Below, piece after piece: positions 7,399 through 10,211 of a DNA stretch of 10,211 nt (position 1 is the first letter of the stretch; every line of letters begins with the position of its first letter). This stretch comes from Candidatus Poribacteria bacterium. Lineage in GTDB: Bacteria > Poribacteria > DTPJ01 > WJIO01. The notes under the pieces are model-generated. The model was not told the origin of the DNA, did no database searches, and saw only the letters and a program-made list of their open reading frames with translations. Made by a program: the position numbers and the translations under genes. The stretch is from positions 1 through 10,211 of the forward strand of contig WJIO01000091.1 in the NCBI GenBank assembly GCA_014730235.1. Reading direction: 5' to 3'.

Positions 7399-8358
7399 TT
7401 ATACGTCAACAGCTTTACCGGTCATAAATGACTTGCTGGCTGCCATAGTGATCTTGTGAGTTTCCAGAGCATCTGAATAAGGAGAAAGAATCTTGGAATC
7501 GTCACCGGATTTAACCGCGTCTATAAACACCCGATCTCTATCCAGACTCGGTTTCGTCTCCATTTCTTCAGCTTTGCCCTCTCTATTAACCAGAGGAGCA
7601 TTTCCACCTACAGTAATTACCAAACCGTGGCAGAATACCTCCAGTTGCACACGCCCCCATCCTTTCATGGCACATGATGAAGCTATATTGGCCACCACAC
7701 CATTTTCAAATACGATATTGACCATGCTAATGTCATCAACGTCATAATCCGGCACATCAGTCATGCCGCCGCTGTTGGCTACACCGTGAACCAGGACAGC
7801 ATTACTGCCTACCAGGAATCGGCACAGGTCAAAGATATGAGTAGTCTGTTCAACATGCTGACCACCGGATTCGGCTCTTACACGCCACCAGTGGACACCG
7901 GGCATGCCGCCCATCCAGTATCCAAGTGAACCGAGAATAATTTCGTCTTCCAATACTGAAAGGGCTGTCTGGGCATTGCCACCATAACGCCAGTGATAAC
8001 CCACACTGCTTATAACTCCTGATTTTTCTATCATGTCATTTATTATAACGGCCTGTTCCCATGTGACGCCAATGGGTTTTTCGATGAACATATGGACGCC
8101 TTTATGACAAGCTATAGATTCCTGTTCACCATGAGCAAAGGGCGGGGTACAGATATAGACAGCATCCATATCAACTTTATCAAACATCTCTTTATAATCG
8201 GTGAAAGGTTTGCCACCAAATTCATCGGCCCGGGCTTTTGCCTTTTCTTCCACCACATCGCACATAGCGACAAATTCCACATCCTCAAAGGTCTTTAGGT
8301 TATTAAGATGAGCACCAGCGATCCCACCAGTACCAATAAACGCAACTTTTGCAGACAT
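7399..8358 (-). CDS. Gfo/Idh/MocA family NAD(P)-dependent oxidoreductase
   Basis: 319 residues, typical for the family. The N-terminal Rossmann fold (1-120) has the dinucleotide loop G9-T-G-G-I-A14, the acidic end of strand 2 (MCDV, 32-35) favouring NAD(H), the DAVYICTPPFAHG segment (65-77) and the hallmark E93-K94-P95. The C-terminal dimerisation/substrate domain carries E170-Q-T-T-H174-I-F-D177, the HxxD active-site pair expected of catalytically competent members. These enzymes oxidise or reduce hydroxyls of sugars, inositols or related compounds; the substrate is not predictable. The ribosome site AGGAGG is eight bases upstream. ThuA follows on the same strand, a common pairing that suggests a carbohydrate catabolic role (inference). 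It has its own promoter upstream. Confidence 0.93.
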   Translation of the reverse strand: MSAKVAFIGTGGIAGAHLNNLKTFEDVEFVAMCDVVEEKAKARADEFGGKPFTDYKEMFDKVDMDAVYICTPPFAHGEQESIACHKGVHMFIEKPIGVTWEQAVIINDMIEKSGVISSVGYHWRYGGNAQTALSVLEDEIILGSLGYWMGGMPGVHWWRVRAESGGQHVEQTTHIFDLCRFLVGSNAVLVHGVANSGGMTDVPDYDVDDISMVNIVFENGVVANIASSCAMKGWGRVQLEVFCHGLVITVGGNAPLVNREGKAEEMETKPSLDRDRVFIDAVKSGDDSKILSPYSDALETHKITMAASKSFMTGKAVDV

Positions 8359-8502: not shown

Positions 8503-8637
8503 CTAATGTAATCGTTAAAAAACGAATACAATTTAGTTGCCATTCCTTCGAAAGCAGGAATGACATATTTTGTAATTTACCATCATGGTAAAGGTATTAT
8601 TCTAAACACATTTTTCATTTTTTAACGATTACCTAAT
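8503..8637 (+). mobile_element. Complete MITE-like element with 15-bp TIRs and 5-bp target duplication
   Basis: The element proper is 8508-8632 (125 bp). Its ends are perfect 15-bp inverted repeats (GTAATCGTTAAAAAA at 8508-8522; its complement at 8618-8632). The direct repeat CTAAT flanks it on both sides (8503-8507 and 8633-8637), as left by transposition. It has no coding capacity. Inside is a hairpin, CATTCCT/AGGAATG around TCGAAAGC, reminiscent of the ATTCC-N-GGAAT palindromes found scattered in many genomes (for example Neisseria dRS3). A diverged second copy begins at 10130. The mobilising transposase is not in the window. Confidence 0.85.
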
Positions 8638-8661: not shown

Positions 8662-8862
8662 CTATAGAACAGGTGGGAGTTTGGGATCCAGAGTAATTCT
8701 ATGTTCCTCAAGAGTGCCCTCATGCGCCCGGGTAAGTTCCAGTGACCATACATCATCTGAGTTGTCGCCTGCAACAATATTATACATAATGCTCTCATCC
8801 CACTGTAATCTGCTCTTTGTCTGTTATGTAGACCATTCTATGTATTTGGGCTTATAAATCAT
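8662..8862 (-). pseudogene. Decayed or very small reading frame after the kinase gene
   Basis: A protein-like frame runs from an ATG at 8862, which overlaps the kinase stop, to TAG at 8664-8662. A single TAA at 8826-8824 interrupts it. Before the stop it reads MIYKPKYIEWST; after it come 12 residues (QTKSRLQWDESI) and then 41 residues from an internal ATG at 8787 (MYNIVAGDNSDDVWSLELTR..., ending DPKLPPVL). The alternation of polar and hydrophobic residues looks coding rather than random. I do not recognise the family. It could be a point-mutated small gene, the tail of a larger lost gene, or a genuine 41-residue gene at 8662-8787 with a weak ribosome site. Another frame over 8823-8850 also reads acceptably (RMVYITDKEQITVG), so an indel is an alternative to the stop. 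Confidence 0.35.
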
Positions 8863-9496
8863 TATGAAGGATGTAATATTCTTTGCCGCCTTTCATGCGT
8901 CTTATTTCTTCCATCAATTCCATTAAATCCCGCTCATTATTAACAAAATCCAGGTTATCGGTATTTACCACCAGAAGGGGAGTATGGGAATAATGAAAGA
9001 AAAAGCTGTTATATCTTTCGTTCAGATCTCTTATATAATCTTCGGATATATTCTCCTCATATTTCCGACCTCTGTTCTTTATACGTTCAACAAGAGTATC
9101 TGTGCTGGCTTGAAGATAAACCACAAGATCGGGTCTGGGTATTGCATCGTCCAGAAATTCGTATATCCGCTCATAAAGCATTAATTCGTCTTCATTAAGG
9201 TTCAGATAGGCAAATATCCGATCTTTGGCAAACAGATAGTCACATATAACACAATCATAAAACAAATCCTGCTGTAGCAGTTCCCTTTGCTGATTATAAC
9301 GACTTAACAGGAAAAAAAGCTGGGTCTGGAAAGCGTATTTATCCCTATCTTCATAAAACTTTTGTACGAATGGATTATCATCAAGATTTTCCAGTATAAG
9401 CAGAGATCTGGACTTCTCTGCCAAAAGCTGGGCAAAGCTGGTTTTTCCTGCACCAATAGCACCCTCTATAGTAATATATTTATGACGCAGATTCAT
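8852..9496 (-). CDS. Deoxynucleoside kinase (dNK family)
   Basis: 214 residues, normal for bacterial dNKs, which phosphorylate salvaged deoxynucleosides in the cytosol. The P-loop is G12-A-I-G-A-G-K-T19. Next comes LENLDDNPFVQKFYEDRDKYAFQTQLFFLLSRYNQQ (35-70), the family's substrate-site helix region, with Q58 placed to read the base. CDYLFAKDRIFA (85-96) holds the DR motif, PDLVVYLQAS (122-131) is a core strand, and RIKNRGRKYE (138-147) is the arginine-rich lid. The pattern fits deoxyadenosine/deoxyguanosine kinases better than thymidine kinase, but the substrate is not proven. Pairing with folK is known from other bacteria. The start at 9496 is fixed by the family's N-terminus and an in-frame stop just upstream, yet no Shine-Dalgarno precedes it directly; the nearest AGGAG (9529-9525) serves a duplicated out-of-frame start. 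Confidence 0.92.
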   Translation of the reverse strand: MNLRHKYITIEGAIGAGKTSFAQLLAEKSRSLLILENLDDNPFVQKFYEDRDKYAFQTQLFFLLSRYNQQRELLQQDLFYDCVICDYLFAKDRIFAYLNLNEDELMLYERIYEFLDDAIPRPDLVVYLQASTDTLVERIKNRGRKYEENISEDYIRDLNERYNSFFFHYSHTPLLVVNTDNLDFVNNERDLMELMEEIRRMKGGKEYYILHNDL

Positions 9497-10124: not shown

Positions 10125-10211
10125 ATAATGTAATCGTTAAAAATTAATATCACTTATGTTGTCATTTCTTCGAAGGCAGGAATGACAAGCTGAGAGAATT
10201 TTCAATTATAA
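10125..10211 (+). mobile_element. Second MITE-like copy, truncated by the window edge
   Basis: The element begins at 10130 with GTAATCGTTAAAAAT (14 of 15 bases of the TIR of the 8508 copy), preceded by ATAAT (10125-10129). The inner hairpin GTTGTCATTTCT...AGGAATGACAA lies exactly 28 bases from the left end, as in the first copy, and pairs over 11 positions (one G-T). Beyond it the two copies diverge. It lies upstream of folK and in the same orientation as the first copy. Confidence 0.75.

Follow-up and report, generated by a model that had tools for sequence, protein, structure and literature searches.

The closest described counterparts of the element analysed here are the ISMac2-related MITEs of Methanosarcina acetivorans, which come from IS1182-family elements, are 160-169 bp long and occur in 7 and 14 copies (PMC3852290). 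The characterised IS1182-family members that a literature search brought up have a 4-bp target duplication or none (PMC3281130, PMC3852290, PMC5678879), and one of them, ISPse1, has a length of 1,653 bp and a 4-bp duplication. A second group to be compared is the REP/REPIN repeats (PMC2817692, PMC3116915), which share with the hairpins described below the short palindromes, a number of about 200 copies, and the occurrence either singly or in inverted pairs separated by a spacer.

Like the ISMac2-related MITEs, the 125-bp element in the window (the entire contig C5, 10,211 nucleotides) belongs to a family of small size, mostly 91-173 bp, which has no coding capacity and shares its ends with a full-length insertion sequence, and the predicted parent carries a DDE transposase in the IS1182/IS5 neighbourhood. 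In contrast, the family has about 130 copies rather than 7 and 14, its inverted ends are 17 bp instead of 25-26 bp, its target duplications measure 5-7 bp where theirs measure 4 or 0, and, unlike the ISMac2-related MITEs, it has a REP-like core nested inside. We propose, with a probability of about 0.93, that the element is a MITE of this family of about 130 copies and that an insertion sequence with the same ends, on contig C228, supplies the DDE transposase which mobilises it in trans. The kind of element is well known, and the family appears to be new. The features are as follows.

8503-8507, no strand: left target-site duplication CTAAT, 5 bp (sequence and family duplication statistics)
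8508-8632, plus strand: MITE, 125 bp, without coding capacity (genome-wide homologues and family alignment)
8508-8522, plus strand: left terminal inverted repeat GTAATCGTTAAAAAA, perfect, 15 bp (sequence and family alignment)
8539-8564, no strand: REP-like hairpin GCCATTCCTTCGAAAGCAGGAATGAC in the window copy (genome-wide pattern count)
8618-8632, minus strand: right terminal inverted repeat, perfect complement of the left one, 15 bp (sequence)
8633-8637, no strand: right target-site duplication CTAAT (sequence)
10130-10211, plus strand: second, partial element, in which the hairpin connects the left half of a member of this family with the right half of one from a second MITE family (CCGGGTTTAGTGTGG ends)
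Contig C228, 12327-13637: very probable parent insertion sequence, 1,311 bp, with inward-facing GTAATCGTTAAAAAATG at both ends

The orientation of the MITE was set by convention, the left arm being the one with ATTTAGTT. A sequence-only reading of this stretch had described a 125-bp element with perfect 15-bp terminal inverted repeats and CTAAT on both flanks, and its coordinates proved exact to the base. The family consensus of the inverted repeat extends to 17 bp (GTAATCGTTAAAAAATG), and the window copy is mutated at position 16 of its left repeat. The neighbouring genes, both on the minus strand, are one for a Gfo/Idh-type oxidoreductase (7399-8358) and one for a deoxynucleoside kinase (8852-9496); the element is located between them, 149 bp upstream of the predicted start of the former. 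When the 125 nucleotides were folded, the energy was -32.8 kcal/mol against -14.4 kcal/mol for shuffled sequences (z -6.1), and such a strong fold is expected because of the inverted ends and the hairpin.

The ends recur throughout the genome, as a search with the end motif TGTAATCGTTAAAAA at no more than one mismatch makes clear. The draft assembly (5.53 Mb, 451 contigs, 91.6% complete) gave 138 and 123 matches, that is, about 260 ends, against 3 and 0 for the reversed-pattern control, and the window itself holds 3 matches against 0.15 expected after shuffling; the recurrence is thus not due to chance. These counts correspond to roughly 130 elements, which is a minimum, since the searched motif begins with a T that lies outside the element. 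Homologues of the window MITE throughout the genome are 83-97% identical to it over all or most of its length, the best ones over the full 125 bp being up to 96% identical, and an alignment of copies shows intact ends. The copy numbers come from pattern counts in the whole genome, and the statistics were obtained from sampled loci (0.70 Mb including overlaps), which were chosen largely for holding these repeats and are therefore enriched in them. Among these loci, 79 elements could be paired, with both ends within 1.5 kb; most of them are 123-125 bp long, and further classes have 91 bp and 171-173 bp.

Insertion of the family leaves recognisable marks at the target. Exact flanking duplications of 5-7 bp were found for 56 of the 79 paired elements (5 bp in 31, 6 bp in 21 and 7 bp in 4), against a mean of 1.6 and a maximum of 6 when the partners were shuffled, values that apply to exact duplications; a looser count that allows one mismatch adds nine more elements. 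A+T makes up 87% of the duplicated bases, 72% of the flanks and 59% of the window, and the duplicated bases are preceded by T-rich and followed by A-rich sequence. When each pair of flanks was joined through a single target copy and matched against the sampled loci, empty sites with a single target were found for four other copies of the family, all of them paralogous, that is, in other copies of the invaded repeat. For example, the site of the copy on contig C353 is present with a single GATAT on contigs C79 and C93 (90-93% identity across the junction, with a gap only beyond it), and the site of the copy on C161 is present with a single ATAAT in three other elements (97-98%). The copy on C423 is inserted in an element of the second MITE family, another copy of which provides the empty site, and that on C314 is inserted in a further type of repeat, with the empty site again in another copy. 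The genome nearest to the source among those searched belongs to the same order only. Insertion into genes is avoided: only 9 of 72 insertion points fall within a reading frame that is 120 aa or longer, compared with 65% of random points in the same flanks, which shows an intergenic bias.

The sequence-only reading had left the parent transposase family unnamed, and contig C228 carries a transposase gene with these same ends on either side. There, a single reading frame of 402 aa without stops fills an element which terminates in the same 17-bp repeat as the MITEs. This element is identical to the MITE over its leftmost 17 bp and roughly its rightmost 22 bp, and the similarity is limited to these ends. 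The protein matches the Pfam DDE catalytic domain DDE_Tnp_1 (PF01609) with 31.4 bits, above the gathering score of 23. Its nearest curated family is IS1182 (NCBIfam NF033551), with which it also shares the single reading frame and the short inverted ends. Since the score for this model is 46.4 bits against a cut-off of 270, the parent is, as judged from its sequence, better called IS1182-like than an IS1182 member; at 1,311 bp it is also shorter than ISPse1, and the 5-7-bp duplications of the MITE family depart from the 4 bp or none of the IS1182 members found in the literature. A distant homologue, 28% identical, is the transposase on an Alicyclobacillus plasmid. In the pairwise alignment with it, D143, D245 and E358 of the C228 protein are conserved, with E358 in an RRxIE motif, and these residues appear to be placed like a DDE triad, as expected. 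Beyond this one match, nothing related to the MITE or the transposase was found in plasmids. Likewise, no relatives were found in the genomes of the phylum that were searched (sets of 58 and 84, the latter for the transposase), in phages, or by peptide patterns in the genome_contigs and viral_contigs collections, and no paired MITE ends were found in viral contigs. With such a distance from the curated families, the C228 transposase may add a type of insertion sequence.

Taken as a mechanism suggested by the sequence comparison, the C228 transposase would bind the 17-bp inverted ends of an element and then move it, and in this way it would mobilise the roughly 130 MITE copies in trans; the element would be inserted into AT-rich intergenic targets between T-rich and A-rich sequence and would leave a 5-7-bp duplication. 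What was observed is the family's ends and copy number, the duplications and empty sites at its targets, its intergenic bias and a parent reading frame with the same ends. The movement would probably be of the cut-and-paste type, and the system seems to have been active fairly recently. The MITE reading of the earlier note is supported by the checks it had proposed, namely the recurrence of the ends, the single-target empty sites of four other copies and the transposase with matching ends. A true MITE could have been moved by a relative with the same ends which has been lost or is missing from an assembly of 91.6% completeness, and the C228 element would then be a bystander. Such a relative would fit with the fact that the C228 element occurs only once and is flanked by TATAT and ATTAA, without a recognisable target duplication, and with the duplication length, which differs from that of IS1182 relatives (PMC3281130, PMC3852290, PMC5678879). 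The single parent copy without a duplication and the restriction of the similarity to the ends also count against our own explanation, although the C228 element may have lost its duplication or been rearranged. On the other hand, its ends are identical to those of the MITEs over 17-22 bp, its frame is intact, no other protein of the genome matches its transposase, and among the 79 paired elements the only other one seen to bear a reading frame is one of 867 bp with an unrelated gene. We therefore regard a lost mover as unlikely; the C228 element is very probably the parent of the MITE family as judged from these ends, and we infer that its transposase moved the copies.

An explanation of a different kind is that the repeat spreads through its hairpin rather than its terminal repeats, as a REP/BIME-type repeat, a structured RNA or a terminator unit. 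The central hairpin is indeed a dispersed repeat by itself, and a transcript of the element would fold strongly. However, the 91-bp copies have no hairpin and have nevertheless kept their ends intact and carry target duplications, the duplicated bases sit directly next to the terminal repeats and not to the hairpin, and the only Y1 transposase match in the genome is in a short frame near which no such hairpins were seen. Spread driven by the hairpin is largely refuted by these hairpin-less copies with duplications, and we consider it scarcely credible. The preferred reading, a MITE moved by the C228 transposase, would represent a clean pair of insertion sequence and MITE in a draft bacterial genome, where a transposase gene present only once is accompanied by about 130 non-autonomous copies, and a single assembly suffices to read the duplications at the targets, the empty sites and the bias toward intergenic positions.

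The hairpin requires a separate description. The CATTCCT/AGGAATG stem noticed in the sequence-only reading is present inside the element (8541-8547 and 8556-8562), but it is not specific to the MITE, being a separate, dispersed REP-like repeat. Its genome consensus GTCATTCCTGCGAAAGCAGGAATGAC has 196 matches within 3 mismatches, counted on both strands as it is a palindrome, against 0 for the control; many copies lie in the MITE family studied here and many others in the second MITE family. Elements of the 171-173-bp class contain the core as an inverted pair, GTCATTCC...GGAATCCAG and CTGGATTCC...GGAATGAC, separated by a spacer of about 20 bases. The arrangement of a REPIN, a dispersed pair of REP palindromes inverted about a spacer, was found in spacer arm types 4-7 as well as in the 173-bp class. 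Only one hairpin is present in copies of the 124-125-bp class, among them the window copy. Relative to the MITE ends, the spacer of the 171-173-bp class is found either way round, which is the pattern that inversion between the two palindromes would give; examples among the 173-bp copies are L066:4749-4921 and L080:16707-16879, and there are others. The hairpin of the window copy is probably a single-hairpin remnant of the REPIN-like core of the longer copies, and the single hairpin is most simply understood as a collapse of the inverted pair. We infer this order of events, with the hairpin as a REP/REPIN-type passenger which was collapsed, inverted or lost in different copies.

Compared with REP/REPIN repeats elsewhere, the hairpins here lie mostly inside MITEs, as far as the sampled loci are concerned, and no RAYT-type transposase is evident. 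The search for one in the assembly, which is 91.6% complete, gave one Y1_Tnp protein, IS200-like by its appearance and with no such hairpins around it; as a RAYT-type candidate, this lone protein with a short frame is not convincing. A text search of the literature with the hairpin sequence returned only papers of unrelated appearance.

The second MITE family, with ends GGTTCTTCCGGGTTTAGTGTGG, is more abundant, with about 330 copies estimated from 341 and 322 end matches. About half of its 45 sampled pairs have outer repeats compatible with an 8-bp duplication. Its elements, such as L088:1462-1567 and L089:1462-1567, have about 106 bp between CCGGGTTTAGTGTGGT ends, an outer GGTTCTT, probable 8-bp duplications and the same central hairpin. 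An ISL3 element is a possible parent and provides a lead: matches to the ISL3 transposase model on contigs C236, C342 and C391 (L271-L273) are fragments below the cut-off, two of them at contig ends, with one weak match to the ends of the second family (L272:1462).

The two families are also found joined. A further match to the end motif at 10130, absent from the earlier note, belongs to the hybrid at 10130-10211, which is cut by the contig end and whose second-family half is CCGGG-ended. When 113 hairpins were classified by their nearest ends, 42 had both ends from the family studied here, 40 had both from the second family and 14 had one of each. Some of these 14 are nested insertions, and several look like true half-and-half joins. 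The joins that were inspected by eye have no evident shared duplication, which suggests rearrangement rather than transposition as a unit; misassembly at repeats is also possible. A tentative reading, which we think unlikely, is that two unrelated MITE families share a REPIN-like core whose palindrome acts as a recombination hot spot, inverting the spacer and joining half-elements from different families. If this were true, recombination at the palindrome would reshuffle the ends of mobile elements and rearrange the chromosome at these points. The shared core, the two-way spacer and the hybrids could help to explain how palindromes spread and are rearranged, and in this respect they are suggestive only.

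Two minor observations were made in the same genome. At L071:3574-4440 (contig C76), a short gene of about 160 codons stands between degenerate MITE copies, the whole measuring 867 bp and lacking a target duplication, and the arrangement is possibly a chance neighbourhood or a mobile cassette. In addition to the complete rpoB on C235, C261:26887-29526 holds another rpoB-like match, within a single long open frame of 2,246 aa, and this could be a contamination or an unusual paralogue.
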